Shown here: one piece after another, positions 29,258 through 64,000 of the stretch
Position numbering within the stretch: position 1 is the first letter of the stretch
Layout: the number at the start of each line of letters is the position of its first letter
DNA from: Steinernema hermaphroditum
Lineage: Eukaryota > Nematoda > Chromadorea > Rhabditida > Steinernematidae
Assembly (NCBI GenBank): GCA_030435675.1
Contig: CM059625.1
Location: 868,001 to 932,000 of the forward strand
Length of the DNA: 64,000 nucleotides
Reading direction: 5' to 3'
The notes under the pieces: generated by a model
Told to the model about the DNA's origin: nothing
Databases searched by the model: none
What the model saw: only the letters and a program-made list of their open reading frames with translations
Translations under genes and position numbers: made by a program

Positions 29258-29342
29258 GCTCCATTGGCGCAGTCGGTTAGCGCGTGGTACTTATAAGTGA
29301 TGAGATATGCCAAGGTCATGGGTTCGAGCCCCATATGGAGCA
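29258..29342 (+). tRNA. tRNA-Ile (anticodon UAU), copy 1, with intron
   Basis: Acceptor arms GCTCCAT and ATGGAGC pair perfectly. The anticodon stem TGGTA/TGCCA encloses loop CTTATAA with an 11-base insertion just after the anticodon, the usual eukaryotic tRNA intron position. A run of T follows, the polymerase III stop. Decodes AUA. Confidence 0.95.
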
Positions 29343-29811: not shown

Positions 29812-29896
29812 GCTCCATTGGCGCAGTCGGTTAGCGCGTGGTACTTATAAGTGATGAGATATGCCAAGGTCATGGGTTCGAGCCCCATATGGAGCA
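29812..29896 (+). tRNA. tRNA-Ile (anticodon UAU), copy 2, with intron
   Basis: Identical to copy 1 over all 85 bases, including the intron, and followed by a T run. It is 554 bases downstream of copy 1, separated by a type-A spacer. Confidence 0.95.
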
Positions 29897-30364
29897 TTAA
29901 TTTTTTTTTCACTCTTTTTGAATCATGATAACTTTCTTGGCATTTTTTTCCTGTAATCAGTGTACAAAATTTTTTTAACCAAAACAACAATGGCTTCGAA
30001 ATAGCATGGCAACGCTACGGTACTATAACAGAGGCTCGGCTCGTCTGGTTCTGTCACCACCAAACGGCCACGCGGAACTTGGCCAAATGACCTCAAACTT
30101 GACCAATCTACATCAACCAAACACGTTAACGTGACACGGCAACAACTAACAACTATGATAAGTGATAACGAAACCCTAAACGGCTCAATCGCAGCGGCGC
30201 GCAGCCCATCTGCTAAGGTCGTCTGCAAGGATCGCGGCGGGAGCCAACCATTCAACCAACCTGACACATCAGATGTTCGTACAGAACGCCCGTTCGGGTC
30301 GATTTGGAATCGCGTTCGGCGATAATTACCCGTGATATACCATTTTTATCACTTAAATGTTGGT

Positions 30365-30449
30365 GCTCCATTGGCGCAGTCGGTTAGCGCGTGGTACTTA
30401 TAAGTGATGAGATATGCCAAGGTCATGGGTTCGAGCCCCATATGGAGCA
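30365..30449 (+). tRNA. tRNA-Ile (anticodon UAU), copy 3, with intron
   Basis: Identical 85-base gene with T-run terminator, 553 bases after copy 2 behind a type-A spacer; the spacer that follows is of type B. Confidence 0.95.
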
Positions 30450-30989
30450 TTAATTTTTTTTTTCACTCTTCTTGAATTATGATAACTTTCTTGCCACTTT
30501 TTTCCTTTAATCAGTGTATAAATATGTTTTGAACCGAAACAGCAATGTTATATTTGGCTATTGTGCAAGTGTCCCCAAAACAGTCAATGCCATTTCGCCC
30601 AAATGGGCGCTCTTTTGTTAATGATTTCTGCGTGTTATAACCTAAAAATAGCTTATCTATCGAATGTCAACGAACCGTTACTGGACAGTAAACAGAATTG
30701 CCAAGGTCTAAAACATTACTAAAGTCTTGTTTTTTGTAAACTTTCCATATTAAGACCATATTTACAATCGTTCTTGCTATTTGAAATCGCATAAAAACGT
30801 GCATGGCAGCCTTTTGATAAGGAACTCGGTAAGCTTTGTGCATTTCAGTGATCAACTAAGAGAGCGCAAACAAGCTGTGATCACTCTGTACAACGTCTGC
30901 TCTTCACAAGTAACAGTTCGGATCGATTTGGAATCGCGTTCGGCGATAATTACCCCTTGATATACCATTTTTATCACTTGGACAGCGAT

Positions 30990-31074
30990 GCTCCATTGGC
31001 GCAGTCGGTTAGCGCGTGGTACTTATAAGTGATGAGATATGCCAAGGTCATGGGTTCGAGCCCCATATGGAGCA
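30990..31074 (+). tRNA. tRNA-Ile (anticodon UAU), copy 4, with intron
   Basis: Identical 85-base gene and terminator, between two type-B spacers, 625 bases after copy 3. Confidence 0.95.
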
Positions 31075-31605
31075 TTAATTTTTTTTTCACTCTTTTTGAA
31101 TTATGATAACTTTCTTTTTCCTGTAATCAGTGTATAAATATGTTTTGAACCGAAACAGCAATGTTATATTTGGCTATTGTGCAAGTGTCCCCAAAACAGT
31201 CAATGCCATTTCGCCCAAATGGGCGCTCTTTTGTTAATGATTTCTGCGTGTTATAACCTAAAAATAGCTTATCTATCGAATGTCAACGAACCGTTACTGG
31301 ACAGTAAACAGAATTGCCAAGGTCTAAAACATTACTAAAGTCTTGTTTTTTGTAGACTTTCCATATTAAGACCATATTTACAATCGTTCTTGCTATTTGA
31401 AATCGCATAAAAACGTGCATGGCAGCCTTTTGATAAGGAACTCGGTAAGCTTTGTGCATTTCAGTGATCAACTAAGAGAGCGCAAACAAGCTGTGATCAC
31501 TCTGTACAACGTCTGCTCTTCACAAGTAACAGTTCGGATCAATTTGGAATCGCGTTCGGCGATAATTACCCCGTGATATATCATTTTTATCACTAGGATG
31601 TCGGT

Positions 31606-31690
31606 GCTCCATTGGCGCAGTCGGTTAGCGCGTGGTACTTATAAGTGATGAGATATGCCAAGGTCATGGGTTCGAGCCCCATATGGAGCA
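31606..31690 (+). tRNA. tRNA-Ile (anticodon UAU), copy 5, with intron
   Basis: Identical 85-base gene and terminator, 616 bases after copy 4. The spacer that follows reverts to type A. Confidence 0.95.
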
Positions 31691-32158
31691 TTAATTTTTT
31701 TTTCACTCTTTTTGAATTATGATAACTTTCTTGGCATTTTTTTCCTGTAATCAGTGTACAAAATTTTTTTAACCAAAACAACAATGGCTTCGAAATAGCA
31801 TGGCAACGCTACGGTACTATAACAGAGGCTCGGCTCGTCTGGTTCTGTCACTACCAAACGGCCACGCGGAACTTGGCCAAATGACCTCAAACTTGACCAA
31901 TCTACATCAACCAAACACGTTAACGTGACACGGCAACAACTAACAACTATGATAAGTGATAACGAAACCCTAAACGGCTCAATCGCAGCGGCGCGCAGCC
32001 CATCTGCTAAGGTCGTCTGCAAGGATCGCGGCGGGAGCCAACCATTCAACCAACCTGACACATCAGATGTTCGTACAGAACGCCCGTTCGGGTCGATTTG
32101 GAATCGCGTTCGGCGATAATTACCCGTGATATACCATTTTTATCACTTAAATGTTGGT

Positions 32159-32243
32159 GCTCCATTGGCGCAGTCGGTTAGCGCGTGGTACTTATAAGTG
32201 ATGAGATATGCCAAGGTCATGGGTTCGAGCCCCATATGGAGCA
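32159..32243 (+). tRNA. tRNA-Ile (anticodon UAU), copy 6, with intron
   Basis: Last identical copy of the array, 553 bases after copy 5, followed by a type-B spacer that ends near 32697 where the repeat stops. Confidence 0.95.
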
Positions 32244-32697
32244 TTAATTTTTTTTTCACTCTTTTTGAATTATGATAACTTTCTTTTTCCTGTAATCAGT
32301 GTATAAATATGTTTTGAACCGAAACAGCAATGTTATATTTGGCTATTGTGCAAGTGTCCCCAAAACAGTCAATGCCATTTCGCCCAAATGGGCGCTCTTT
32401 TGTTAATGATTTCTGCGTGTTATAACCTAAAAATAGCTTATCTATCGAATGTCAACGAACCGTTACTGGACAGTAAACAGAATTGCCAAGGTCTAAAACA
32501 TTACTAAAGTCTTGTTTTTTGTAAACTTTCCATATTAAGACCATATTTACAATCGTCCTTGCTATTTGAAATCGCATAAAAACGTGCATGGCAGCCTTTT
32601 GATAAGGAACTCGGTAACATTTGTGCATTTCAGTGATCAACTAAGAGAGCGCAAACAAGCTGTGATCACTCTGTACAACGTCTGCTCTTCACAAGTG

Positions 32698-47759: not shown

Positions 47760-47864
47760 CTATTCGCAGAAATCAAGGTCACACCTTTTCTTGAGAGGCT
47801 TGGCTGATACATCGATTCCGATCAGAGCTAAGAGAGCGAAGGCAACCGTGATCTTCCCCGTCAT
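47760..47864 (-). CDS. minimal one-unit C-x4-C peptide precursor
   Basis: A 34-residue frame: signal peptide (GKITVAFALLALIGIDVSA), then KPLKKR and a single CDLDFC followed by E and a stop. It has the same leader and order as the first exons of the two larger precursors at 48548-49278 and 52656-53062. Those continue with EEEE and a splice donor. Here a TAG follows the first Glu, but the sequence up to AAG|GTACAA, aligning with the paralogues' donor, is still visible. It may be a real one-peptide gene or a recently shortened one. A TATA-like box lies 64-70 bases before the ATG. If cleaved after KKR, the product would be a seven-residue peptide with one possible disulfide. Function unknown. Confidence 0.6.
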   Translation of the reverse strand: MTGKITVAFALLALIGIDVSAKPLKKRCDLDFCE

Positions 47865-47927
47865 CTCGAAGCACAATTATTCACAAAATATGGTGAATCC
47901 TGGAATCATAGTGATGCTCGACACTAC

Positions 47928-47934
47928 CCTTATA
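47928..47934 (-). promoter_or_regulatory. TATA-like box of the one-unit precursor
   Basis: TATAAGG on the minus strand, 64-70 bases before the ATG at 47864. Spacing matches the boxes of the other peptide genes in this cluster. Confidence 0.5.
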
Positions 47935-48547
47935 CCGTAAAATCCAGCACGAGATATTTAAAAAAGGCCCGCTGCATTGTTTGCCACTTGATATTCTTGA
48001 CGTTTCTATTTTAATCGCGAAATTCTCGGCATTCTATTCGTCGGCGATCCAAATGTTGAACACTGAAGTTACAGACTGTGGATGAATGTCAATAAAACTC
48101 ATAATGAACAAGCATACCTCTCTCTGCTCACTAGGATTAGTTCCCATACCTTTTCATTTAATAACAACGGTTATTCTTGTTACATTTTTGTATCTGCTTT
48201 CGAGCATTCTTAATAGTCCGCGTTATATTTGTAGTGCTTTCGCATCGCAAACCAGTGGTATCTTCGATTATTCCGATTGGCTCTTCTATCTTTGTTAGGG
48301 CTCCGTATTTCCCACGGCTTTTGTTTTACATGATATAAGTTTCGAACGTTTCCGAACGAGAATCTTTAATATTCATTTAGGACGTATTTTTTAGGACACA
48401 TTTTAGGACACATTCACGACAGCTGCTCTGTAGGAATGTAATAATCGAACGTACGTTAAGCTGCACATGTTGCTTCTTAACTTACTTTTATTCATTCAGA
48501 CATGCAAAAATGAGTCTAAGTTTTTAACAGGTTCCGAACATTGTGTT
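47935..48547. other. intergenic, no gene recognised
   Basis: About 600 AT-rich bases between the one-unit and ten-unit precursors. No further peptide cassette or domain was seen on either strand. Confidence 0.5.
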
Positions 48548-49111
48548 CTAGCAGAACTCGATCTGGCAACGCTTGGCGGCGGGTTTCACCTCTTCCTTGA
48601 TCTCTTCTTCCTCCTTGCAAAAGTCTAGGCGGCACCGCTTGGTGATGGGCTTCTCATCTTCTTTTATCTGTTCTTCCTCCTCGCAGAAGTCTAGATGGCA
48701 GCGCTTGGCGATGGGCTTGATCTCCTCCTCGGTCTGCTCTTCGTCTTCACAGAAGTCGAGATGGCAGCGCTTAGCAACAGGCTTCACCTCTTCCTCGATC
48801 TGTTCTTCCTCCTCGCAGAAGTCTAGGTGGCAGCGCTTGGAGATGGGCTTCTCCTCTTCTTTGATCTGTTCTTCCTCCTCGCAGAAGTCTAGGTGGCAGC
48901 GCTTGGCGATGGGCTTCTCCTCTTCTTTGATCTGTTCTTCCTCCTCGCAGAAGTCTAGGTGGCAGCGGTTGGCGATGGGCTTGATCTCCTCCTCGGTCTG
49001 CTCTTCGTCTTCACAGAAGTCGAGACGACACCGCTTGGCGATAGACTTCATCTCTTCCTTGGTCTGTTCTTCCTCCTCGCACAAGTCGAGATGACAGCGC
49101 TTGGCGACAGG
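48548..49111 (-). repeat. tandem peptide-coding repeats, nine units in exon 2
   Basis: About 60-base units, each coding one Cys hexapeptide, an acidic linker and a KR site. Units 48840-48960 and 48900-49010 are nearly identical at DNA level, and two other unit types (with CGAAGA-type EDEEQ linker) alternate, so the array grew by unequal exchange in blocks of more than one unit. Confidence 0.8.
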
Positions 49112-49278
49112 CTAAAAGTATGTAGAAACTCTCACGGAATAAAACTGCGCAAATGTACCTTAATTAGCTCCTCCTCTTCACAGAAATCCAAATGGCATCT
49201 TTTCTGAAGAGGCTTGGCCGAAATGCTGACGGAGATAACGGCAATGAGTGCGAAGGCAATGCAGACTTTTCCCAACAT
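48548..49278 (-). CDS. ten-unit secreted precursor of C-x4-C (CHLDFC) peptides
   Basis: Two exons, 49278-49159 and 49111-48548, in phase, 227 residues. Exon 1 gives a signal peptide (GKVCIAFALIAVISVSISA), KPLQKR and the first CHLDFC. Exon 2 holds nine more units of about 20 residues: CxLDFC, an acidic stretch such as EEEEQIKEEEKPIA, then KR. Hexapeptides are CHLDFC six times, and CRLDFC twice, with CHLDLC and a terminal CQIEFC once each. One cleavage site is NR instead of KR. This is the layout of a neuropeptide-like or other secreted multi-peptide precursor cut by proprotein convertase. Each Cys pair could close a six-residue ring directly at the new N-terminus. No amidation Gly is present. 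I know no named family with this motif; function is unknown. The opposite strand is also open for 173 codons, which is a shadow. Confidence 0.85.
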
Positions 49279-49849
49279 ATCGGAAGCCGTGATCGAAGGA
49301 AGATTTCTAGAACTGTGATTGTTTCATTTGATACGCATGCTTTTATGCAAGAAAATCAGGACCGAAATGGCTTGATGATTCACTGCCCGTCTGGCCATTT
49401 CGTCGGTTGATGCTAAATTTGGAGCACGGCACGTTGTTCAATATTCTGTTTCCGTTTTTGCAATAACTCTGTTTCTTGTTGTCGAAGTTCGAAGCTCGTA
49501 AGAGTTTGCTATTAATTTGATATGTGAATCTTCATGGAAGGTGATGTGGAGAAGGAAACGGCGCCAAAATGATGGTCTTGTTAAGATCTTTGTTCTGTGA
49601 TCAGTAGCGTTCTCTAAATTAGGAACAATTCCGAATTTGGAATTGCGAAAATATCTCTTTGACTCATGGGATCATTTTCGCCGTATGCAGTATCCAATCT
49701 GGGACTACAGCAAAAATAGCGTACGCTATTTCTGATTGTGTTAGCGCACCGTGTGGCTAAAAGTGAGACATTCTGCCTTTGTGGGAGGAATCTGGATGCA
49801 AGATGGACGAAGACTGCTAGTGTTTTCTCTTTATCGCCTGTAATTTCAG
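49279..49849. other. shared upstream region of two divergent peptide genes
   Basis: The 571 bases separate the ten-unit gene on the minus strand from the broken KLCN-type copy on the plus strand. It should contain the ten-unit gene's promoter; no other gene is seen. Confidence 0.5.
49339..49348 (-). promoter_or_regulatory. TATA-like box of the ten-unit precursor
   Basis: GCATAAAAGC on the minus strand, 61-70 bases before the ATG at 49278. Confidence 0.5.
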
Positions 49850-50077
49850 ATGTGCGGAAAAGTTTTCGTTCTTTTCACTTTTGTTGCTCTCTTCATTGTT
49901 GGCGTGTTTTCGGAATCTATTGAAAAGTCACAAGAAGTGGAAATATTTACCTATGTAAACAGCGATGGAGATAAGCAGTACTCCAACGGCATTCATCCAG
50001 AAGAGAGATTCGTGTGGCAAAGCGGAAACTATGTAATGCTCATAATCTCATTTATAATCTGTGGTGTACTGTTTTGA
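49850..50077 (+). pseudogene. broken copy of the KLCN-type secreted peptide gene
   Basis: The ATG follows GTAATTTCAG directly, as in the three intact paralogues. Signal peptide and propeptide (FSESIEKSQEVEIFTYVNSD) match the copy at 62575. Near 50010 an extra base shifts the frame. In the other frame the end reads VAKRKLCNAHNLIYNLWC, so the second ring Cys is Tyr and the final Arg is Cys. Both changes would abolish the ring peptide. Confidence 0.75.
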
Positions 50078-50689
50078 TGATATTTCGGTTGCGTTCTCAT
50101 CGAGGTGTGTTTTTAAGGTTGCTGCTTTGTGAACAACAATGTTCGTTAGCGTACCTTCTATGCTTAATATTGTTAAGACAGTCAAGGAATGCTCCCTGTT
50201 CTTTGACCGCTGTTGAAAAAAGCAGTAAATAGCAAATGAGACGTCCCGAAATAAAATCAGTGACACATCGTCTACAGATTGCAGCTACATGCGCATTCAA
50301 TATGGTACCGTCTTACGGTGGCTTCTATTGTCTGATATGCGTTCATGTCAACACAAATCTACATTCGAATTCGCCTTTGCCACCAGAGCAAGTTCAACGA
50401 AGTTACACATCCCGGGTCCCATTGTCGACTGTTTGTACTCTTTGATTGTCTAGTAGTACGGAAAGAAATTTTAGAAAATAAAATTCAATTTTTCATCACT
50501 AGTTTTTCTGAGTTTCAATTTAGTGGGGCGGCTGTTCTATGTCTGAACCCGAGTTTACATGGATTTAGACCGATCGATTGGCTATCAGATGCTACAGTGC
50601 AAAGTCCCCATTCGAATGTGCTCTTTTTGTTGGTGCTACAACGTCCGCTCTGAAGCCTGAAGTCTGAAGCCAGCACCAGCTTTTAACCA

Positions 50690-52140
50690 GTGCAAGGAAA
50701 GCTTCCGCGACGTTTACAACTACAAATCACTAGTTTGGCGGACACGGATCTCATTCTAGCAGACAAGTTGCCTCTAGACCGCTGCAACAAGATCGTTGTT
50801 GAGGACATGGTGATGGCTGCCGATGGGCATATAAGATTCGCGGATCAAAGGGCGACACGTTACATGCGGAAGCTTGTAAGTTGTTTGGGTTTATGATGTT
50901 CAACAGTTATAAGTTTTTCTCATTGTCAGTCGACGTATGTCATGTAGACTCTTCTTGACTAAACCTCTAAAATGTCATTAAGTAGGCGAAACTTTAGCTT
51001 CTAGCAAGACAGTGCTTCTATGGAAAACAGTATGTTCTTCTATGTTTCTTAGATTCTGCACTATTCACATTTTAATACGTGGATAAATCATGCCAAAGCC
51101 AAAAGATATAGCACGGAAAGAGCCGGAAAACATAAAAATTTAGGACGAAGCTCGCAAGAACTTCATACAGCGCAACATCTCCATCATCGCATCCGTCTTC
51201 TGCACCATGAGTGTAAGAGAATTTGCCGGAATGATCGACATGTTCGACTGCTATCGTTGTTCCTGAAATAGCACTTACAGATTCCGAAATTTAGCGCACC
51301 AGGATTGCCAGGAACACCATGAGATCAATGCTTTTCTTTCTCATTACATGGCATTCAGAGCTTACTCCAAGCACGAAGAAGAACTTTGCCAAACTGCTCG
51401 AGGAGATCAATAGGCTCTCACAAGCACCCGACGACCAGAGAAGCCCGTACACGCTGAATGTGCGGTATGGGAAGAATCTCATCTAGAAATATTTTATTGA
51501 TGTTGTCTAGGATCCCGGGATCGGAGATGAACGTTGGACGCCTCTACGACGTCAAAGTGCTGAACAGCCTCGACGCGGTTCTCTAGAGTCACTCAAGCGC
51601 CATGACCATAAAACAAAGCTCATCAGCCCGATGATTGCGATGGATGGAGATGAGCGACAATACTCCGTGGACAACACTCTGAAAAGATGGCTCGGCAGTG
51701 GACTCCGCAAATCACAGATCATCGTTCACATCCCCACATACGGAATATCCCATTAGCTGAGGAACCACAGTGAAACGGTGCCAGCCGGTGCACTGACGAC
51801 ATCAACTTCGTGGCTATCTCGCAAGAAAGTTTGTCTTAGCGTATACCTATGGAAACATGAACTGTTCGTTTCAGATCTGAAACCTTCTGAACAAATCGAC
51901 CGATGCGAAGATCCTCTATGATGTGATCGCATCATATTCAACAACTCCTTAAAAGTGGCTCGCTTTCGACAACATCGCGACAATTAAGTACAAGTGCGCT
52001 ATGCGCAGCGTGAAGGCCTCGGAGGTGTCGGTCCTTTCACCATTAACGACGAAGACTTCGACGGAACGTCGTGCTCCGCGGGTGTCTACCCCATTCTTAG
52101 CACCGTTTTGAGCTCCATTTGCCGTGGTCAGTGAACACAT
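50690..52140 (+). pseudogene. degenerate GH18 chitinase-like gene
   Basis: Pieces of a glycoside hydrolase 18 domain lie in order in changing frames. ADKLPLDRCNKIVVEDMVMA near 50760 is the first strand. FAKLLEEINRLSQ at 51390-51420 is followed, after a GTATGG..TAG intron-like gap, by RIPGSEMNVGRLYDVKVLNS. Next come YSVDNTLKRWLGSGLRKSQI and HIPTYGIS near 51660-51750, WLAFDNIATIKYK near 51960 and LGGVGPFTINDEDFDG near 52020. Stops and shifts separate them, and I do not find the catalytic DxxDxDxE motif. Active GH18 enzymes cut chitin; nematodes also have many inactive chitinase-like members. This copy is a relic. Confidence 0.7.
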
Positions 52141-52655
52141 TTTTGTATGAGAATGTGGAATAGAGCAATAAAGCAAAGTTGCACGAAATTGTACATGAAA
52201 AAGATCAGATATACTCATCGGCGCGGATTGTATGGGTCGCTTTTTGAAGGGAACGTTGCTAGCGTTGCCCTCTGGATTGTTCGCATACCCAAGCAGAGAT
52301 CGACAGCCACGCCTGTCCAAATGTGCGCAAGGTCCACACGCACATACTGGAAGTTGATAAAGGAGATGAAGCGGCACAAGAAAGGCGCGCAATAGAAGCA
52401 GTCCGCAAAAGGATAACGCAGAGAGCCACGAAAACGTCATGAAAAGAAGGTCCAACAAGAAGATATCCAGAAACAATCTTCTCCAAACGAGTCTTTTCAC
52501 CTTTTTGGGGTCATAGCAATTTCCGAAATATTATGGCACGTCAACCAGTAATTTATCTCGACTTATCCATCTGGCGTTACAAAATATTCAAATCGGTTAT
52601 GAGCGTTCATACTAGCAGAAGTCGATGTGAGCTTCGCCCCCTTCTTGAACTAGTT

Positions 52656-53062
52656 TTATTCTTCGCAGAAGTCCATAGGGCATCGTTTGGCGACGGGCTT
52701 CATCTCCTCCTTGATTTGCTCTACGTCTTCACAGAAGTCGAAACGACAGTGCTTCGCGATGGGCTTGATCTCCTCCTTGATCTGCTCTTCTTCCTCACAG
52801 AATTCGAAGTGGCAGCGCTTGGCGATGGGCTTGATCACCTCCTTGATGTGCTCTTCTTCCTCACAGAAGTCGATATCGCAACGCTTGACGACTGGCTAAA
52901 AGTATCTAGAAATCCTTACGCAATAAATCGTTGTCAGTTTACCTTGTTTTGCTCTTCCTCTTCACAAAAATCAAAAAGGCATCTTTTCTGAAGAGGATTG
53001 GCCGAAATTCTAACGATGTTTACGGCAAATAGAGCAAAGAGAATGAAGGCTTTTCCGAACAT
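52656..53062 (-). CDS. five-unit secreted precursor of C-x4-C peptides
   Basis: Exons 53062-52943 and 52895-52656 join in phase, 119 residues. Signal peptide GKAFILFALFAVNIVRISA, then NPLQKR and CLFDFC. Exon 2 adds CDIDFC, CHFEFC, CRFDFC and CPMDFC, each after KR except the fourth, which follows KH, with acidic linkers such as EEEEQIKEEIKPIA. Exon 1 has exactly 40 codons, as in the ten-unit gene, and the intron is in the same place and phase. The inner two residues of the hexapeptide vary much more than in the ten-unit gene; the D/E-F-C end is constant. Probably a paralogue producing a different set of ring peptides. Function unknown. Confidence 0.82.
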
Positions 53063-53125
53063 CTTTGAGGTCCTTGTGCGTTCAAAGAATTCGAGGACGA
53101 AATGCTTCTCCCCTTCAATGCGCTT

Positions 53126-53134
53126 GATTTTATA
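53126..53134 (-). promoter_or_regulatory. TATA box of the five-unit precursor
   Basis: TATAAAATC on the minus strand, 64-72 bases before the ATG at 53062. It is the clearest TATA box in the peptide cluster. Confidence 0.6.
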
Positions 53135-53670
53135 CAGAAAAAATGACAGAAATATGGCTTGTTGAATCACTGCCTGTCGGGCCCTTTTTCAACAAAATGT
53201 TAGAGAAGGAAGAAAAAAGATTGCTTTGCAATTTAACGATTGGTTTGTTATTTTTAAATTCATGTTTGTAGCCAAATGCACTCGGGATATTTACTACAGG
53301 CACAGGAACCAAGAACGTTTCAATATAACACAACATGTGCGAAGCTTCAAAAACACTTCATGTGCGAACCTGAAGTATCAGCAGATTTGGAATATTTGCC
53401 ATTTGAGTGCTGTTTTCGAATTAACCGACTTGATTTTCGATTTGTGATTTGATTTTCGTTCACGTTGAAATCGGAATTCAGAGTTTTGAGAAAATTCTGC
53501 TGTTTTCTTTTCGCGGAGCACCGCTTGTTGATGATACACCCGCGCCCGTTTTCCTCAGGAATTTGACCTGTTCTCTGGATCGTGATCTTTTTTGAAGATA
53601 GGCAGAAACACGCAAATAGAATTACAAAATGCGTTGACTCATATAATAACATTTGCTCCGTCTGTAATGG
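53135..53670. other. intergenic, no gene recognised
   Basis: AT-rich sequence between the five-unit precursor and the fold-back element; open frames carry no motif. Confidence 0.5.
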
Positions 53671-55112
53671 ACACTGCTGGACAAAAGTATAGGCCACCCC
53701 CTTATTCGGCAGTTTGGAGGGCTAGCGGCAAGTTTTGAAAATACCGACTACCCCACGTGAAAAAGCGTCGCGAAAAACATAGGTTCCATGGGGAAAGGCG
53801 AAATCCTTGGAAGAGAAACAAATGTAAAAACGTTCAAATAAATCTGAGACACATTTTCAGCTGGACAAAAGTATAGGCCACCCTAGACATTTGCTTCGCA
53901 TTTAATTCGTATTTAATTGGTAACAAGCCCTGTTTTCACTGTTATTTACTGGAACTGTGTTTCAAGGCTATTATGCTGCAATGGGTCGAAGTGCGCGTCT
54001 TACAGAGGTCGGAAAGGACAAAATTTAAGAGCTCCATTCTGGACACATGTCCAAATGGAAACATGATAGGCAGATGGCCACACATTCTTCGCTAACAGAC
54101 TCCAAACCACGCAAAACACCGTATTCGGCGCCGCAGATTACATGAGAGTAAAAATTATACCATTTCAGTGCTTATAGGCATCATTCCCCCTTCAAAACTT
54201 AGAACCCCAACATGACCTGCATTCTAGTTCGGGTCCCAGAACGATCTGGAAGATGGAATTTTCAGCTTATTCCATCACTACCACGTTGTAGAGCGTATGC
54301 GAAAACCCCTGCTTCGGTTTTATCCGATGAAAAATGGAGTAAATGCGAATTCTGGGCGTGGACATCTCGTAACATGGAATTTACAATGGAAAAAGGTCGT
54401 TTTTCAAAAGATTTTGGAAAACCCGGCTGTCTTTTATCCGTAATGTTAGACAATTAGCAGAAGATGACCGAAAGGGGTTTTCGCATACGCTCTACAACGT
54501 GGTAGTTATGGAATAAGCCGAAAATTCCATCTTCCAGATCGTTCTGGGACCCGACCAAGAATGCAGGTCATGTTGGGGTTCTAAGTTTTGAAGGGGGAGT
54601 GATGCCTATAAGCACTGAAATGGTATAATTTTTACTCTTTTGTAATCTGCGACGCTGAAAACGGTGTTTTGCGTGGTTTGTAGTCTGTTAGCGAAGAAGG
54701 TGTGGCCATCTGCCTATCATGTTTCCATTTGGACATGTGTCCAGAATGGAGCTCTTAAATTTTGTCCTTTCCGACCTATGTAAGACGCGCACTTCGACCC
54801 ATTGCAGCATAATAGCCTTGAAACACAGTTCCAGTAAATAACAGTGAAAACAGGGCTTGTTACCAATTAAATACGAATTAAATGCGAAGCAAATGTCTAG
54901 GGTGGCCTATACTTTTGTCCAGCTGAAAATGGGCCTCAGATTTATTTGAACGTTTTTACATTTGTTTCTCTTCCAGGGATTTCGTCTTTCCCCATGGAAT
55001 CTATGTTTTTCGCGACGCTTTTTCACGTGGGGTAGTCGGTATTTTCAAAAGTTGCCGCTAGCCCTCCAAACTGCCGAATAAGGGGGGTGGCCTATACTTT
55101 TGTCCAGCAGTG
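53671..55112. mobile_element. fold-back derivative of a Tc1-type transposon
   Basis: Two inverted arms of about 640 bases (53671-54311 and 54474-55112) surround a 160-base centre. Both ends start CACTGCTGGACAAAAGTATA, a Tc1-type terminus. A second, direct copy of GCTGGACAAAAGTATAGGCC lies 185 bases inside each arm (53860 on the left), so each arm has the two-site IR/DR layout known from Sleeping Beauty-like elements. Each arm then carries a transposase start (MGRSARLTEVGKDKI, ATG at 53981 and mirrored at 54802), soon interrupted by a stop. The centre has a SDEK motif from the catalytic part. TA follows the right end but not the left. No full transposase exists. Confidence 0.85.
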
Positions 55113-56311
55113 TATAATTTCGCACAGCGCGGTTCCTATTGGGTTGGTGCATTGAAAATGTCGGTGACATAAACGTGGCATAATTTCGCAGTATTTACTC
55201 ACAGGGAACAACTGATGGGCGCATTGTGGAGTACAGTGAACTATAACCCTACATTATGATTTTCCCCTTGTCCATTGCATTCTTCCTGATCATGGAGAAG
55301 TATCCCAGTATGACGGTCCTTACTCTGGTACTTCACAATTGCGAAATACGAAGTGATGTACGGGATTCCTATGGTTTTAATTGTGTGATGGACGTTGATT
55401 GCTGCCAATCACGTACACCGTTATGTCTTACCTTCCGAATGCACCTATCGTTGTGTTTGTCATATATCACAACATGAGCTAATCTCAAAAAGACGGCCTT
55501 CCCGGATCACCATGTTCCGTTAACTCTAACGTTTCCAATTGGTTAAGTACTATAACAGACAATGGGGATATGCATCAGGTACCTGTCGCTCGTAGCTACT
55601 ATGCCTACATAGTGACTCCACGAGTTCATTTTTACTTCACAGAAATAGAGGCCAAATGTGGAAAAAATGACCCTTGGATCGACAAAACGTCCGACTGCCC
55701 GAGGCCGTGTATTTCCAAGTCGACCTCCACAAAAGCTCTCTACTTTAAACTCAGAGATTTCTTTTTTGTTGTCTATATAGCACTGTCTTAGCTCTATCTT
55801 ACTCTCACCTGTGCTCATCCATAAGTGACGATATCAAAAGAAACTATCCAAAATAAGGTTAAGAGGTCGAAAATCGGAACAAAAAGGTTTTTCAATTTTT
55901 AACCCCGCGTATTCTACAAACGAGGAATCCGGATGTTGCCTATAAAGTGGACTGAAGTTGTACATAAGAACGATGAATACTTTGTCTGAAATCTTTGTGT
56001 TTTGTTTCTGTAAATAATCACAAAATCATCTGACATTTTCAATGCACCAACCCAATATATTCTGCAACGCTCATATTCATTCTTCAACATAGTGATTTTA
56101 TCAATGCATAATATGGTTACTCCACAATTTGAAAGCACTCAAAAAGCTGATAGTCGATAATGTTGTCTTAGATGTTAGCTGCTGAGAAAGACATATCCTC
56201 TCCTATTGAAGCCAGCAATCAAGGTTTTCACTCCATGTCTGCCTTGGATTACTTTTATGACTTGCTACCCAATGTCAACTTTATTGACAGAAATGTCTGT
56301 ATACAAACTGC
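55113..56311. other. intergenic, no gene recognised
   Basis: About 1.2 kb between the fold-back element and the next peptide gene. Open frames of 73-91 codons on both strands overlap each other and show no family motif. Confidence 0.45.
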
Positions 56312-56539
56312 TCAGCGCCACAGGTTACAACTCAAGTTATGGGCATTGCACAGTTTTCTCTTCGCAATATGCACTTCTTGGTCTGGCAGAGCCCCGATAG
56401 GCTGCTGCTTGTATTTATCGGTTTCAATAGGGTTGTACAGTGCCGCTTCGCTTTGGCTTTCAATTACGTTGACCGTTGACGAGATGCTGACGGCGAGAAG
56501 AGCAAGGAGGGCAAAGAGAGCGATCAGTTTTCCACACAT
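56312..56539 (-). CDS. KLCN-type secreted ring-peptide precursor, copy 2
   Basis: A single-exon frame of 75 residues, with TTTCAG directly before ATG. Signal peptide GKLIALFALLALLAVSISS, a variable propeptide, then HIAKR and the C-terminal KLCNAHNLSCNLWR. A convertase cut after KR would release 14 residues with Cys at positions 3 and 10 (C-x6-C). It differs from the other intact copies in the mature part only by Ser for Ile before the second Cys. The propeptides share almost no sequence. No known nematode neuropeptide that I remember has this sequence; allatostatin C-like peptides also have C-x6-C rings, but no other likeness is seen. It could be a hormone, neuropeptide or defence peptide. 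Confidence 0.8.
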   Translation of the reverse strand: MCGKLIALFALLALLAVSISSTVNVIESQSEAALYNPIETDKYKQQPIGALPDQEVHIAKRKLCNAHNLSCNLWR

Positions 56540-56603
56540 CTGAAATCGTTGAGCATAGAAGTAAGGAACGGAGCTGAACTGACGAAGCTTCTCCTAAGCC
56601 TGT

Positions 56604-56613
56604 CTTATAAAAA
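56604..56613 (-). promoter_or_regulatory. TATA box of KLCN copy 2
   Basis: TTTTTATAAG on the minus strand, 65-74 bases before the ATG at 56539. Confidence 0.5.
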
Positions 56614-57126
56614 CAAGAACATGCCTCAATTAGCAACAGCTACAAAACAGCTTTTCACAGAACCAGAATCTAATTTTGTCCTCAATTCTACTTCAATGTG
56701 TTCGTACAAAGATCGTTTCTGCTCGTGCGACCGATCAAACTTCTACTAAAAAGAGGATTCTCATTTTTCTCCGGACAATTTAAGAGATTCTGCGTTGCAA
56801 GTGCGATACGAACACTAATTTTGGAGAAACGCTTTCAAAATTTATCCCTTGCATATCCGACATGTGGAAGGATTCAAGAAACAGGCGATCCGTGAAAGGT
56901 TGTTCTATGTATAAAACATAAATAACATCTTAGCATAGAGCAAAAGAGCAAAAGTGAGCCAAAAGCCATTTCCATAAAAATAGACGTCGATGTACACACT
57001 GCGTCTGAGGCTTGTACAAATATAGCATATCTGTAAAATTAGAATATTTTGCAATCGTAAAAAGCCGTTATCGAAAACTAGTGGCAACCAGTCTTCCTTT
57101 TCCACTCTTACAGTAGCTGATTTTAG

Positions 57127-57348
57127 ATGTCTGGAAAACTCGTCGTTGTCCTCGGGCTTGCTACTCTCTTTGCTACCGTCATCGCGACCAAATCTATGGA
57201 AAATCCAGTCGAATCAGAAATCTTCATCGCCGCAAACAGTGATGTTGACAGAAACGAATCTGTTCGAGTTCAGGCCGACAGCGAAGTATACGTTGCCAAG
57301 CGGAAACTTTGCAATGCTCATAATCTGATTTGTAATCTATGGCGCTAA
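57127..57348 (+). CDS. KLCN-type secreted ring-peptide precursor, copy 3
   Basis: A 73-residue single-exon frame behind GATTTTAG. Signal peptide GKLVVVLGLATLFATVIAT, propeptide with ENPVESEIFIAANSDVDRNE, then YVAKR and KLCNAHNLICNLWR at the very C-terminus. The mature part is identical to copy 4 (62575-62793). It is divergent from copy 2, with 587 bases between the two start codons. The expected TATA position (about 57056-57063) has only CGTAAAAA. Its 3' end faces the eight-exon gene on the other strand, whose stop codon is 140 bases away. Confidence 0.8.
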   Translation: MSGKLVVVLGLATLFATVIATKSMENPVESEIFIAANSDVDRNESVRVQADSEVYVAKRKLCNAHNLICNLWR

Positions 57349-57487
57349 GCATTCGCCGCCCACCACAATTATCGATAAACAAATTGTTCAATACCGAGTC
57401 AAAAAGCGGTCCCATTTAGAACTCACGCGCACATATGGAAATTATCAAATATATACAAGCAGAAATGAGATCAAAATATCGGGTTAT

Positions 57488-60101
57488 TCACGCGAGGTTT
57501 CCTGACCACAGCAAAGGATAGTAGTTAAGTATGTCGTCGATTTTCAATGAAGAGTCGGCGAGAAAATTCTCACTGATCAGTCGCATTATCTTTAAGTAGT
57601 CTTCAACAAGTACCTGAGCGGCATGCACACCCTATATTTCAGCGGTTTTTGTACTATAATACCTGCATACTCGATAGGAAGAAAATCATATTCCCCCACA
57701 ACGAAGGGTCGCGGTCGCTGTTTCGGTAAAAGCGGTCCATTGAAACCCAGGTCCTCTTCATCTGCTTGAGTGTCTCTTCCCATTCTGCACAGTCGATGTG
57801 GTTATCGTCTGTAAAGGGGTTCGCAGTCCAAGTTATTAGTTGTGTATCAACGATATCAGAGATGTCTAATCCACGGCATATTGATGGTTACCCTGGTAAC
57901 CCCCCGAGAGAAAGGGCAACCCGACAAAATCGTCATTCAAAAATCGTCATTGCAAAAATCGTCACTCAAAAATCGTCATTTTACAAAAATCGTCATTGCA
58001 AAAATCGTCATTACAAAAATCGTCATTTTGCAAAAATCGCCATTTTCAAAAATCGTCATTTTCAAAAATCGTCATTTTTCAAAAATCGTCATTTTCAAAA
58101 ATCGTCATTTTTAGCTTCGTTGGGAACCCGAAGGGCGAGCCTTGTTGTCGTGGTGGCTTCGGCAAACCCCGGCTTGGCTTAGGCTTAGGCTTAGGACAAT
58201 GCCTGTTGATTTAATGCGAGCCCGAAGGGCGAGCCCTGTAGTCTTAACTGGTCGGGTACAACTGATCCCAGGACAACTGATACCACGGATAAGTGATCCG
58301 ATGGACAACTGATGCCACGATGCCCAAATAGTTTTCGATGGTGTGCCTGTTTCGATGGTGTGTTTGTAAAAATGACGATTTTTGTAAAATGACGTTTTTT
58401 GAAAATGACGATTTTTGAAAATGACGATTTTTGAAAATGACGATTTTTGTAATGACGATTTTTGTAAAATGACGATTTTTGTAAAATGACGATTTTTGTA
58501 ATGACGATTTTTGAGTGACGATTTTTGAAAATGACGATTTTTGAAAATGACGATTTTTGTAATGACGATTTTTGTAATGACGATTTTTGTAAAATGACGA
58601 TTTTTGTAAAATGACGATTTTTGTAATGACGATTTTTGAGTGACGATTTTTGCAATGACGATTTTTTAATGACGATTATGTCATGTAGCCGAGAGAAAGA
58701 TATATCACCTAACAAACTTACTTCTGTGTATAATTAGAATGATGATGAATACAACGAAGTCTTCGTTGGTCTTGAAGAGATCTTGAGCTGCATAAACGAG
58801 GATCCCCCTCGCCGTTCGTAGAAAGTCTCTATACGCACTAAAACGATCGCCTTATCATGTGTTTACGTTTAGAAGCATACGTTTCAATTTTTTCGTATTG
58901 TGGATGATTACCTAAAACGACAGAAAATTCATAAACTTAGAACGGTTCTGTTCAACTTGCTATTGTAGTTATGGAGATCGTGGAGATTGAAATCAAGGGA
59001 TTCATCAAAAACATGGTTAGAGTAAGCTATTATGTGCATGAAGGTTGTCTAAATTTGGAAATAGCTCGAGCCCCAACATACACACTCACAAAGTGATTAA
59101 GGGTGTTAAAGTACATCTTGTTTTTTATGTCCATGTATGCGCTTTCGACGATCGGAAGGTGACCGTACAGCTCATACAAAAGAGTTGATTCGGTGAAAAA
59201 GCAAGCCTTGTATGTTTCGAAGCAGAACAGTTTGCGTTGTTCCGGTATCGTGTGAGATATCTGCAAATAAGGAAAAAAAAATAGAAAAAGCCAAATAAAG
59301 CCGATGGTTATCATTTTAATGTTTTTATGTTATCTCTTAGGGGCGTAGGCCTAGGCTTAGACTTGCCGGCTAAAGAAATTGCAGATTCTTTGGAACAGCC
59401 GTCTCAGTCATTCAAAACCTACACTCAGAAGGCTTCTCGTCTGGGACAGTGATAAGGTCATATGACAAATTCTTGTCTAGACATGTCTCAGTTTCAGTCT
59501 GAGTAGTGATCGGGCTCATGAAGGCCAACCGTCCTTTCATATTTACTTTCCACTATCTTTAGCTTTTGGCGTCTGAAGTTCAAAACGGATGTGAGCCATT
59601 CATTCTTCAATGACAAGAAACAGATGTTTTGAGATATTTCGCAATATCTGCTAACGGTCTTTGGTTTTTAATGGAAACGACCATGTTTGCGTCTTTCATT
59701 TCTGTTATCAGAGGAAGTAGGCAGACTCTTACTTCCGCTCGGGTTCAAAAAACAAAGAATTACATTGAAAACATCATAAGAAACTCACATGTCTGCGAGA
59801 ATAGGACGTTTGCAGATGGTTGAACTTGGCTTCTAGAAGATTGTACATCCCAGCGATCACAATTTGAAGATCTTGGGCATCTTGTTTTGGTACTACTGGA
59901 ACGGGTTTCGGCAGAAGGACTAATCCGTCGGTGTGATGCCGCACAGTTTTGCGTCCTTAAAAGTGCCACCGATCCAAATAGCTGGAGAAACTGGCGAAAC
60001 GAACCTCTGGTCTCATTGTCCTCACCCTCATCCGGGCCGAACAACAACGATCGTAGGGATTGTGGCGCCCGAGGTTTGTAAGGTGCCGAATCAAGGGACA
60101 T
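57488..60101 (-). CDS. eight-exon gene of unknown function with hydrophobic segments
   Basis: Exons 60101-60026, 59919-59789, 59260-59090, 59026-58957, 58911-58881, 58837-58722, 57865-57663 and 57631-57488 keep phase and give 313 residues. I do not recognise the family. A Pro-rich start (LLPKPVPVVPKQDAQDLQIV) is followed by a helical part with FCFETYKACFF. Next is a hydrophobic stretch near 130-150 (LTMFLMNPLISISTISITTI), then a second near 185-197 (FVVFIIILIIH). A soluble-looking C-terminal part contains WEETLKQMKRTWVSMDRFYR and LWSGNLA at the end. No signal peptide is evident. One donor (A|GTTGAA, end of exon 4) is weak, but only this choice keeps exons 5 and 6 in phase. The 0.86-kb intron between exons 6 and 7 holds the inverted minisatellite. 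Confidence 0.65.
57930..58113. repeat. minisatellite, left arm, about 12 units
   Basis: About twelve units of CAAAAATCGTCATT, 14-17 bases each, varying mainly in the run after CATT. It is the inverted partner of the array at 58368-58678 and lies in an intron of the eight-exon gene. Confidence 0.9.
58172..58197. repeat. interstitial telomere-like run of TTAGGC
   Basis: GGCTTAGGCTTAGGCTTAGG, three to four copies of TTAGGC, the telomere unit known from nematodes. It lies in the spacer between the two minisatellite arms. Confidence 0.8.
58368..58678. repeat. minisatellite, right arm, about 20 units, inverted
   Basis: About twenty units of AATGACGATTTTTG, the reverse complement of the left-arm unit. 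Variant units (TAATGACG, AGTGACG, AAAATGACG) recur in the same order in two blocks, so the array expanded by duplicating groups of units. Confidence 0.9.
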
Positions 60102-60317
60102 GTTGTTCCTACTCGCTAGGGTTGTCGGTGTTTGGGAGATCGACTCGTAAGAAATGAAATAATCTGTAAGAACAGATGAATGTTATCGATTAGGAGATGG
60201 TTCAATTCACTGATGTAAGATAATTACAGTTGACAAAATAAGGGTGACTCAGCAAAAATATAAAGAAGTGGCAAGAGGAAGTGTATTGAACATAAATAAT
60301 GTAAAAGGTAAAAAGAA

Positions 60318-60390
60318 TGATCCTGGCCGGGTTCGAACCGACGACCTTCTGCGTGTAAAGCAGACGTGATAACCACTACACCACAGGACC
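60318..60390 (-). tRNA. tRNA-Val (anticodon UAC)
   Basis: On the minus strand GGTCCTG pairs with CAGGATC (one G-T), the anticodon stem TCTGC/GCAGA closes loop TTTACAC, and the T-arm has GGTTCGAACCC. Length is 73 bases, no intron. Confidence 0.93.
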
Positions 60391-61261
60391 ACACATCCAA
60401 GAGGCGACAGGAATAGACTACAGCAGCAACTCGTGTTTCCCTGTTTTACACTGCACTCTGAAAAAAATGATCTACAATACAAGAGCAGTCATATCTATGT
60501 ACTCGTAGAAGACTACTTAGAAAGTGCTAAAGTTAGTGAGAGCAATGGTTACAGATCTTCGTCGTAGGGTTGGAGATGAAGAAAACATCACTAAGTGTTC
60601 TTATCGGGGCTTTGTGATCTGCGTGCGTTTTTTGGCATGATTTCTAAGAAAAAAAATTGAAATTAAAAGGAACCGTTGGAAGGTGAGTGCACACATGCGG
60701 GTAAAATTTCACAATTTTCAACGGTGTATCAAAAAATTACGTACCCAAGTAAAGGAGATACCCTGTGTCTCAGGACCTTAGAGGAACATCTAAACTGAGA
60801 ATTTGTGACTGACGCCTCATACAATTTCTGTCACATTAAATTTAGCTGTCATAGAAGTCGACTTATCAAGTACTTTCTCACGTGAATTGTTTCTCAACTA
60901 TCGGACTGGAAACGAACTCTATGTTGAACAGCAACGAAACTATCCGCGTACTCAATAGCTTTCGAAACCAAAACATAAAAAACTAGGAAAACGACGAAAC
61001 CAAAGAAAAATTATTTGTTACCCTCCTTAATCGTTCAGAGAAGCAAATACTGATGCAGCGCTGCGTTGGCCGCACGTGAGAGTCTCTGGTAATCGTTGTC
61101 AGTAAAAGCCGAGTTGCCGATAGCAAAGCCGATAGCGAGGCTTGTGATACCTGCGTTTCGATGAAATGCTGGGTTTCCCTACGCAGTAAGCTAAATTTTT
61201 ATTTGGTTGCGTTCGGTGTTTCAAACATCAGGAAAGCAGAATACATAAGGCATCAAATATA
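60391..61261. other. intergenic, no gene recognised
   Basis: About 870 bases between tRNA-Val and the short mariner derivative. No coding frame or repeat that I can support. Confidence 0.5.
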
Positions 61262-62182
61262 CAGAGTGTTCCATAAGTTCTGTAACGCCTCAAAATGAGC
61301 ATATCTCGCCAAAAATTCAACGGATTCGCGCGAAAATAGGTGTACCTATAAAAGAGGACCAGATGAACAATCATCTAGAACGATTCTTCGAAATCACCAC
61401 TTTAAGTGGAAAAAAGGCTTGAAGAAGTTTCTTAAAAATTTTCGTCGTGGCCACGAGTAGTCTGTTGCCCATGCTCGCTCCAGAGATCGCTTCAGACTGT
61501 CCAAGCGAGTGTGCCAGATTCGCGAGTCTTCATTCTCCAAGAATCCATAGATGGGATAGTCTTGAGGGTTCAGGTCGGGGATATTGGGGGGCCACATATC
61601 CTTGCTCCACTAACTTGGGCAGATCTGTTTCGAGACCTCCATGGGTAATTTCGATCCATGTGCCTGGGCCCGGTCCTGCTGGAGCATCTAGTTCTTGTTT
61701 ATGAAGTGCTCCTGAGTGAATCTTGCCACTTATGCCTTCAGATTCCGTTCTCGATAGATTTCCGAGTTAATCCTGACACCTTTTTCAATAAAAACGGGTT
61801 TCGTTCGGCCCATCCCTTCTATTTTGGCCCTTATCTTGACGGACTTCTGTGGGAAGCGGCTTTTTTTTAACTTAACAGATCGAGGAGAACCTGTTTCACG
61901 GAGAGGTCGCTCGTTATGCTGATTTGAGAATGGTTTGATCGGAAAAATCTGCTCATTCGTGAAAAACGGTAGGCGGATTCCTCAGCTTGTGGCCACGGCG
62001 AAGAATTTTAAGAAACTTCTCGAAGTCTTTTTTTCCGGTGAAAGTGGTGATTTCGAACAATCGTTCTAGATTATGGTTCTCCTGGTTCTCTTTTATAGAT
62101 ATACCAATTTCCGCGCGAATCCATTCAATTTTCGGCGAGATATGCTCATTTTGAGGCGTTACAGAACTTATGGAACACCCTG
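61262..62182 (-). mobile_element. shortened mariner derivative with long terminal inverted repeats
   Basis: A 921-base element between TA dinucleotides. Both ends begin CAG-GTGTTCCATAAGTTCTG (left CAGA, right CAGG), and the match continues inward for about 190 bases with few differences, far longer than in the two other mariner copies here. The minus strand has transposase remains: RAQAHGSK near 61670 and WPPNIPDLNPQDYPIY at 61597-61550, the D37D-type C-terminal part, then the coding region runs into the left repeat. The N-terminal half is absent and stops occur. It is a non-autonomous, internally deleted copy. Confidence 0.8.
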
Positions 62183-62574
62183 TAGGTGATTTTTTGTAAA
62201 TTTAGAGTAAGAATAACATTGCTTAAATCGGACTGCACTTCGGCATATTTGAAAAGGTTCTATTTGCCCGAACCTCTATTACCTGTACTTATCGAAAAAA
62301 TGAGTGGATACTGTAAGACACTATAATAAATTATAATAACAGTGTCAAAATTTGTGAAGAATTGCAATGCTCAATTACAAATATAAAATGTCTACTGAAC
62401 AAATCAAAAAGGAACCTATAATTAGACTTGATCGTCGCTATTAGATCAGTGATATTTTGAGACTGCGCAAATGTGGCGTTGCTAAAAGTAGAGAATTTGC
62501 TATCATAAAAGCTAAGCGGAGCGGATGTTTGGCCAGTTAGCGTTTGCATCCAACATTATTTTAAATGGTTTCAG
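62183..62574. other. intergenic and upstream region of KLCN copy 4
   Basis: About 390 bases. No gene is recognised; contains the probable TATA box of the peptide gene. Confidence 0.5.
62504..62510 (+). promoter_or_regulatory. TATA-like box of KLCN copy 4
   Basis: CATAAAA, 65-71 bases before the ATG at 62575, the same distance as in four other peptide genes of the cluster. Confidence 0.5.
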
Positions 62575-62793
62575 ATGTGCGGAAAACTCCTCGTTCTCTT
62601 CGCTATTTTTGCCTTCTTCGCCACTGTCGTCTCTTCGGAATCCATTGAAAACTCAAGCGCATCGGAAATCGTCATCCCTGTGAACATCGATGGAGACGGA
62701 ACGCAATCGGTTATTCAGACTGAAGACGAAGTCCATGTCGCCAAGCGGAAATTGTGCAACGCCCATAATCTGATTTGCAATCTGTGGCGCTAA
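62575..62793 (+). CDS. KLCN-type secreted ring-peptide precursor, copy 4
   Basis: A 72-residue single-exon frame directly behind GGTTTCAG. Signal peptide GKLLVLFAIFAFFATVVSS, propeptide with ESIENSSASEIVIPVNIDGD, then HVAKR and KLCNAHNLICNLWR. It is closest to the broken copy at 49850 in the propeptide (ESIE-S and NxDGD) and identical to copy 3 in the mature part. AATAAA lies within 30 bases of the stop codon. The TTTCAG before the ATG fits trans-splicing, with a short outron between the TATA-like box and the ATG. Confidence 0.82.
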   Translation: MCGKLLVLFAIFAFFATVVSSESIENSSASEIVIPVNIDGDGTQSVIQTEDEVHVAKRKLCNAHNLICNLWR

Positions 62794-63536: not shown

Positions 63537-63826
63537 ATTCCCTATTCATTCCCTCCTTCAAGCACCTCTCGTAGCGGCACCTCTTGCAAGCGTGGTTTGC
63601 GGTGACGTCTGAAGATGCTCAACGTTAATTCTGCATTACTGACGACACCGAATACATACCTGCAACTGCAGTCGCCTTGCAAGCGCTTTCTCGTCTTACG
63701 CATTCCGGAATTTTATCCAGTCGAACGACTCTACGGAAAAACGCCGCACAGCCCATGCACGCCAGGGCGCCGAAGTTGTGTCGCGATATTGGCGAATTGT
63801 GACAAATTCTACAACCGCCGAACTGT
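63537..63826 (-). CDS. nuclear hormone receptor, DNA-binding domain (partial gene)
   Basis: Exons 63826-63660 and 63608-63537 join in phase and code a C4-type nuclear-receptor DNA-binding domain. Finger 1 is CRICHNSPISRHNFG with CMGCAAFFRRVV, where CMGC takes the place of the P-box CEGC. Finger 2 runs from CVRRESACKA to HACKRCRYERCLKEGM. HNFG and GCAAFFRR are typical of the expanded nematode NR family. The reading frame is open at the 5' side, with a GTTTTTAG acceptor before it, so at least one earlier exon, with the start codon, is upstream, perhaps beyond the window. I could not find a ligand-binding domain downstream. The receptor would bind DNA as a transcription factor; ligand and targets are unknown. 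Confidence 0.85.
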
Positions 63827-64000
63827 CTAAAAACCGGTAAGTACGAAGCATGCTTCATAAGCCTACGAATCTGACGGTCTTTCGTAAAATCTGGTCCGAG
63901 TATACGGGTCGATTGTCCACATGAATCTCTGAACGTACGTGTTCAAGGGTATAGAACTGCTTAACACGATGAACTAAACTTTTGAACGACACTATGCTCT
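63827..64000. other. upstream intron or flank of the nuclear receptor gene
   Basis: The last 174 bases show no identifiable exon. The missing start of the receptor gene probably lies beyond the window. Confidence 0.4.

Follow-up and report, generated by a model that had tools for sequence, protein, structure and literature searches.

A 64,000-nucleotide stretch of the Steinernema hermaphroditum genome (contig C5, CM059625.1, positions 868,001 to 932,000; the window) carries a cluster of small genes belonging to two families, A and B, which are predicted to encode secreted precursors of disulfide-ring peptides, with four residues between the cysteines in family A (C-x4-C) and six in family B (C-x6-C). 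S. hermaphroditum is an insect-killing nematode that is studied together with its bacterial symbiont. We propose that the genes are real, that their products are small secreted prepropeptides and that the rings would serve outside the cell as ligands for receptors of the nematode itself, in a hormone-, neuropeptide- or pheromone-like manner; judging from the sequences, we give this reading a probability of about 0.58. The structure of the genes, the pattern of selection in family B and the existence of two precursor types for the hexapeptide CHLDFC were observed directly. An earlier sequence-only reading had placed seven such loci at positions 47,760 to 62,793 of the window. All seven were found there and the observation proved larger than reported; the interpretation attached to it was half right.

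Family A carries C-x4-C rings singly or in arrays

Family A comprises three loci in the 90.6-Mb assembly, all on the minus strand and within the window (C5:868001-932000), and the seven matches returned by a whole-genome search with the A2 protein all fall in these three loci.

48548-49278, minus strand: A1, whole locus; two exons, 10 cassettes
49159..49278, minus strand: A1 exon 1, 120 bases; MxGK leader, QKR and first CHLDFC cassette, with a GT donor at its end
49112..49158, minus strand: A1 intron, 47 bases, GTACAT...TTTTAG; length and place match the A2 intron
48548..49111, minus strand: A1 exon 2; nine more C-x4-C cassettes in 66-base tandem units, the last reading CQIEFC-stop
52656-53062, minus strand: A2, whole locus; two exons, 5 cassettes
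52943..53062, minus strand: A2 exon 1, 120 bases; MxGK leader, QKR and CLFDFC cassette
52896-52942, minus strand: A2 intron, 47 bases, GT...TTTTAG; the splice is also in the database model QR680_000164
52656..52895, minus strand: A2 exon 2; four cassettes CDIDFC, CHFEFC, CRFDFC and CPMDFC, ending CPMDFCEE-stop
47760..47864, minus strand: A3; MxGK leader, KKR and a single CDLDFC cassette, with the stop one codon past the second cysteine

The three C-x4-C loci described earlier are therefore confirmed, with the amendment that A1 and A2 have two exons and hold 10 and 5 cassettes, A3 holding one. The intact frames, and the GT-AG introns of 47 bases that A1 and A2 share in position, support their being real genes. 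KR directly precedes 14 of the 16 cassettes, the exceptions being one NR in A1 and one KH in A2, so that the AKR, QKR or KKR said to precede the peptides applies to most cassettes and not to all. Internal units consist of the hexapeptide followed by an acidic 14-residue spacer, giving a step of 22 residues, and the A1 repeats hold 20 cysteines; a hexapeptide followed immediately by a stop is found solely in the last unit of A1. No counterpart of exon 2 was seen across the 260 bases beyond A3, which, its leader and KKR being intact, may function as a single-copy gene or may have been truncated.

Family B carries a single C-x6-C ring

Family B consists of four loci in the window and a fifth, B5, at C5:1492040, 560 kb distant. 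B2, B3 and B4 are intact.

49850..50077, plus strand: B1, a relic; leader readable, frame broken ahead of the peptide (matches in two frames)
56312..56539, minus strand: B2; precursor ends AKR-KLCNAHNLSCNLWR-stop, an I to S change relative to KLCNAHNLICNLWR
57127..57348, plus strand: B3; precursor ends AKR-KLCNAHNLICNLWR-stop
62575..62793, plus strand: B4; precursor ends AKR-KLCNAHNLICNLWR-stop
62570..62574, plus strand: acceptor-like TTCAG abutting the B4 ATG; the same kind is present at B1, B2, B3 and B5

The claim that four window loci encode one C-x6-C peptide thus holds exactly for B3 and B4 (two of the four copies) and with one substitution for B2; it fails for B1, whose second ring cysteine, read by eye, has become tyrosine. 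In the intact genes the reading frame runs without interruption between the MxGK ATG and the stop codon. In all four of them KR precedes the peptide and the ring interior is NAHNLI or NAHNLS, followed by a four-residue tail, NLWR. When the whole genome was searched with the B2 protein, the five B loci were recovered together with two weak hits on contig C1, with E values of 0.53 and 2.7, which were not counted.

CHLDFC is encoded in two unlike precursor types

The pattern KR-C-x-[LF]-D-F-C occurs 15 times in the 90.6-Mb assembly and once in the reversed control, a ratio on which chance reading frames were rejected. Nine of these matches lie in the window cluster and six, at C2:1457406-1462363, in a single cluster on contig C2. 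This second cluster (C2:1457403-1462366) is made of six short genes in three head-to-head pairs, each with an alpha and a beta gene whose start codons are 365 bases apart, the third pair being inverted. All six terminate exactly in KR-CHLDFC-stop and so encode CHLDFC, its C-terminus free, as their last residues. Their leader begins MVRF rather than MxGK and is followed by a short intron; the alpha splice is present in the database model QR680_007624 (P0003), which starts 19 codons further upstream. As the three pair cassettes are nearly identical (843/891, 868/881 and 839/890 aligned columns), the triplication looks recent. A decayed beta copy, its first ring cysteine changed to serine, lies at C2:1390458. 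CHLDFC is thus encoded in two unlike precursor types, the MxGK genes of family A and the MVRF genes of C2.

The general pattern KR-C-x4-C-stop was not enriched (72 matches against 100 in the control), which makes this a specific family and not a genome-wide class. Among 19 of the 72 general matches that were inspected, three had a hydrophobic ATG-started stretch within 900 bases upstream, none shown to join the peptide. One KRCSVEFC on C5 ends a 92-residue open frame that has no hydrophobic ATG-started stretch.

Of the 22 cassettes, 12 spell CHLDFC exactly: six of the 16 in family A, all among the ten of A1, and all six on C2. Across the 22, position 2 is free to vary and position 3 takes L, F, I or M; position 4 holds D in 20 cassettes and E in the other two, and position 5 holds F in 21, the remaining one having L. 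Two reservations apply: the A1 and A2 units were chosen by a pattern requiring these letters, and the six C2 copies, being almost identical, do not count as independent. Because the chosen units occupy both arrays throughout, evenly spaced at 22 residues, none of the array units was overlooked.

The mature part of family B is nearly fixed

The ratio of the proportions of nonsynonymous and synonymous differences (pN/pS), summed over the six pairs of the four intact B genes, was 0.04 for AKR plus the mature part, compared with 0.53 for the leader and 0.75 for the pro-region; these are uncorrected proportions from non-independent pairs, with 17 codons. In AKR plus the mature part pS was 0.68, a synonymous divergence as high as elsewhere in the gene; as the synonymous sites are equally diverged, recent gene conversion or copying is not the cause of its constancy. 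Such a pattern is the reverse of that of a toxin-style superfamily and would be expected of the ligand of a conserved receptor. The plan of a diversified superfamily, which the sequence-only reading had proposed, is therefore not borne out: in family B the leader and pro-region vary and the mature part hardly does.

Between A1 and A2, pN/pS was 0.19 in the core units and 0.23 in the spacer, indicating that both are constrained. This similar constraint, together with the 22-residue periodicity and the lack of a cleavage site after the ring, is what would be expected if family A were a structural acidic repeat protein that stays whole, family B being a separate matter. We consider this very unlikely, as KR is kept before 14 of 16 units and as A3 and the six C2 genes keep KR and the ring singly, with no repeat.

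The leaders of A and B probably share descent

All eight family leaders begin MxGK, as the sequence-only reading had it for the cluster, compared with none of 172 background N-termini. The background N-termini are hydrophobic 21-mers opening with an ATG, drawn from 160,521 bases of the genome; as these are mostly non-genic, the comparison with position-specific leader profiles that follows appears in too favourable a light. Under the B profile all three A leaders scored above all 172; under the A profile four of the five B leaders did so, and B3 was equalled or beaten by one. Scores were 14-25 for seven of the eight leaders and 0.08 for B3, against at most 5.2 for the C2 leaders. In a permutation of codons 5-21, mean A-B identity was 27.4/51 against 18.5 +/- 1.95 (4.6 standard deviations; reached in 0 of 5000 permutations), and 14 of 15 single A-B pairs fell below 0.05. 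A hydropathy rule for a hydrophobic N-terminus was passed by nine of the ten family leaders.

Other results speak against kinship of the leaders. After removal of the first four residues, A1 and A3 were each beaten by one of the 172 background N-termini and B3 by 19. The MVRF leaders of C2, used as controls, were not inert: the beta leader also beat all 172 under both profiles, at far lower scores, and the alpha leader was beaten by one (B profile) and by 11 (A profile). By codon permutation the C2 leaders reached means of 25.0 against A (0.0098) and 26.5 against B (0.0096), about 2.4 standard deviations, with 4/6 and 4/10 single pairs below 0.05, respectively. Alignments of 300 bases of upstream DNA gave no A-B homology, only A1-A2 standing out, and leader-only genome searches found nothing beyond the leaders themselves. 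Six places, all of them family members, were recovered with a hybrid leader query, although the A matches benefit from the tail that it takes from A.

Convergence of ordinary signal peptides, with the clustering accidental, would account for these control results and for the lack of any upstream alignment, and part of the likeness does appear common to signal peptides, since the C2 leaders too exceed permutation. As the A-B likeness exceeds that part (4.6 against about 2.4 standard deviations, profile scores of 14-25 for all but B3 against at most 5.2, MxGK in 8/8 against 0/172), we regard convergence as improbable and descent from a common leader as likely. The earlier statement that one leader serves two unrelated mature peptides is accordingly upheld by the profiles and the permutation, with the qualification that the C2 controls show part of the resemblance to be generic; likewise, to the doubt whether the leaders surpass random signal peptides, seven of the eight lie above the whole background, and so does the beta leader.

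Upstream elements

A further point against convergence is an ATAA element at -69 to -72, written [TCG]ATAA[AG], which is present in six of the eight A and B loci (A1, A2, A3, B2, B4 and B5) and at 28 of 2459 window ATGs, the family's own included; the motif was widened after looking, and the narrower [TC]ATAA[AG] gives 5/8. B3 has CGTAAA at that position and the relic B1 has no such element.

49342..49347, minus strand: candidate TATA-like CATAAA, 69 bases before the A1 ATG
53129..53134, minus strand: candidate TATA-like TATAAA, 72 bases before the A2 ATG
47929..47934, minus strand: candidate TATA-like TATAAG, 70 bases before the A3 ATG
56604..56609, minus strand: candidate TATA-like TATAAG, 70 bases before the B2 ATG
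62504..62509, plus strand: candidate TATA-like CATAAA, 71 bases before the B4 ATG

As a promoter of the B genes the -70 element is doubtful, because B3, B4 and B5 also have a TATAAA (at -217, -193 and -256, respectively) and because the B5 model has an upstream exon. This model, QR680_000261 (P0001), opens with ML. These two residues apparently come from an upstream exon, ATGTTG, followed by GTATGT (C5, about 1491.8 kb); it lies 213 bases before the MxGK ATG and is itself preceded, 43 bases upstream, by TATAAA. In the model this exon is joined at the TTCAG before the MxGK ATG, which would place the -71 element within an intron. TTYAG adjoins the ATG in all five B loci, a further sign that these are real genes, and in 12 of 2461 window ATGs, the four window B loci included; a similar 5' exon may exist in the other B genes.

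Database searches and gene models

The A and B sequences were compared with a protein database of 5.8 billion proteins, with open-access literature, with Pfam and with the PDB. Protein matches were found only in S. hermaphroditum, a single protein per search, the A1 query having scored the best 8000 candidates; these searches need shared exact words, and distant or unannotated relatives would escape them. The whole-genome protein queries likewise score best candidates only, and the A1 query missed the C2 genes. The strings CNAHNL, CHLDFC, CRLDFC and KLCNAHN had no occurrence in 5.39 million open-access papers, nothing exceeded the curated Pfam cut-off in the seven precursors and models scanned, and the PDB sequence search gave no match. 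That neither motif belongs to a described family, as had been stated, holds in the protein-database and literature searches made.

The database models returned cover B5 alone (QR680_000261) and B2 fused with A2; none was returned for A1, A3, B3 or B4. The fused model, QR680_000164 (P0002; window 52656-56539), spans 3.3 kb to link A2 with the greater part of B2, cuts off the second cysteine of B2 and is probably a prediction artefact. For annotators this is a warning, as the small A and B genes are mostly absent or fused among the models returned.

Proposed path and target of the peptides

A signal peptide would take the chain into the secretory pathway, a protease of the kexin or prohormone-convertase type would cut after KR, and a carboxypeptidase could trim the basic ends, family B ending in Arg. 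The two cysteines would then form the disulfide ring, and the peptide would be released and bind its receptor. Secretion, cleavage, trimming and ring closure are all predicted from sequence, and the target on the nematode's own receptors is the least certain part. Each family B precursor would give rise to a single C-x6-C ring peptide, (K)LCNAHNLICNLW(R); the rings from family A and from the C2 genes would be C-x4-C with the pattern C-x-[LFIM]-[DE]-F-C, mostly CHLDFC. The internal product of family A would be CHLDFCEEEEQIKEEEKPIA unless its acidic tail is removed, and the bare hexapeptide would come solely from the last A1 cassette and the C2 genes.

Several points weigh against a ligand role. 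No homologue was found in another species in the protein database, which is unusual for conserved hormones, although the poor annotation of such small genes even in S. hermaphroditum tempers this argument. In neither family does a Gly precede a basic site or a stop to signal amidation. As there is no cleavage site after the second cysteine, the internal A product is a 20-residue acidic peptide unless it is trimmed, and the spacer of family A is constrained about as much as the core. The limits of the pN/pS values given above belong here as well.

The same acidic product bears on the possibility that the loci are clusters of innate-immune, antimicrobial peptide genes, comparable to the nlp/cnc clusters of nematodes. 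Small clustered secreted-peptide genes would fit, and elevated numbers of putative antimicrobial peptides are reported for Steinernema species in the available part of one study (PMC10506718). CHLDFCEEEEQIKEEEKPIA is strongly acidic, however, and cationic antimicrobial peptides were rejected on this ground; moreover, mature B is nearly fixed, there are only two cysteines, and no Pfam match above the cut-off was obtained in the precursors scanned, which makes an antimicrobial role highly improbable.

The rings might otherwise be released into the insect and act on the host, for example as mimics of a host ring hormone or as blockers of an adhesion receptor. Gene amplification on two contigs fits selection for dose, and every cassette has D or E at ring position 4, as the search pattern requires. 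C-x-L-D-F-C may resemble LDV-type integrin ligands with a disulfide ring; the string CWLDVC is in none of the open-literature matches listed, 20 of 168. The available portion of PMC10562934 reports that S. hermaphroditum kills fly larvae and does so without activating certain immune readout genes; the sparing of these genes by an insect parasite is in keeping with a host target. Nevertheless, no host protein matched in the protein database, and host-directed peptides often vary, which the mature part of B does not. A host target therefore appears unlikely, and we favour ligands of the nematode's own receptors.

More tentatively, and at less than even odds, the genome may mix leaders and cassettes: the MxGK leader stands before two rings, and CHLDFC stands behind two leaders, in an array in one case and in head-to-head pairs in the other. 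On this proposal the ring-only hexapeptide would represent a new class of nematode hormone or pheromone, its dose raised by two independent amplifications. If true, CHLDFC would be a tail-less analogue of the oxytocin ring. The presence of CHLDFC behind two leaders suggests a way for a mature peptide to outlast the precursor that carries it. The two candidate ligands, one of them nearly fixed in its mature sequence, are short enough to be synthesised and would offer a direct target for receptor screens and gene removals.

Other features of the window

Several other elements lie in the window:

53671-55113: fold-back element between A2 and B2; 614-base arms, 97% complementary, separated by 162 bases and perfect over their terminal 31 bases
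57926-58677: arrays of 15-16-base repeats between B3 and B4, of the AAAATCGTCATTTT type and then its reverse complement
61260-62184: inverted-repeat element upstream of B4; 156-base arms, 89% complementary
63628-63858, minus strand: frame matching the nuclear-receptor C4 zinc finger (PF00105, E 7.1e-07)
29257-32244: six tandem 87-base tRNA-like genes, about 0.55-0.63 kb apart, with identical Rfam scores

The anticodon of the six tRNA-like genes looks like TAT, their type being left open by ARAGORN; they are reminiscent of the nematode-specific long-arm tRNAs.

Comparison with known peptide systems

Conotoxin-like superfamilies join one leader to different cysteine cassettes. Selection in family B runs in the opposite direction (mature part 0.04, leader 0.53), and the core of family A stands at 0.19. 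Urotensin II has a C-x4-C ring near the C-terminal end of its precursor, with ring residues that probably differ from those of A.

Peptides of the vasopressin/oxytocin family, such as nematocin (CFLNSCPYRRY-NH2), share an N-terminal C-x4-C ring with all 22 A and C2 cassettes, which were themselves found by the C-x4-C pattern. They differ, as far as the available portion of PMC7181382 describes them, in that (i) the A and C2 rings have no proline-led amidated tail, a stop or charged residues following the second cysteine, and (ii) family A is KR-linked, and multi-copy in A1 and A2, whereas the known peptides directly follow the signal peptide. No Pfam match to neurophysin was found in the three sequences scanned, QR680_000164, QR680_007624 and spliced A2.

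Family B resembles precursors of the somatostatin/allatostatin-C type, which, according to the part of PMC7536072 available, release one C-terminal peptide after a dibasic site and have six residues between the cysteines in the protostome allatostatin-C peptides. All four intact B genes show the same ring of six residues, single C-terminal peptide and dibasic site; unlike the peptides described in that part, none has the FxP motif, and the tail NLWR after the ring is a further difference. The conserved phase-0 N-terminal intron of allatostatin-C genes reported there is not present in B from the MxGK ATG onwards, although the B5 model has its upstream ML exon. Neither the A nor the B peptide fits the known ring-peptide families compared here.

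In S. carpocapsae, mass spectrometry identified 19 precursors, nlp-100 to nlp-118, with no known nematode homologues, and some nlp genes are known only from Steinernema, as stated in the accessible sections of PMC9881375. Families A and B, compared with these by description only, resemble them in having a signal peptide by the hydropathy rule and short peptides flanked by dibasic sites. On the whole, the A and B genes are most likely ligand precursors of a known general kind and new in sequence.

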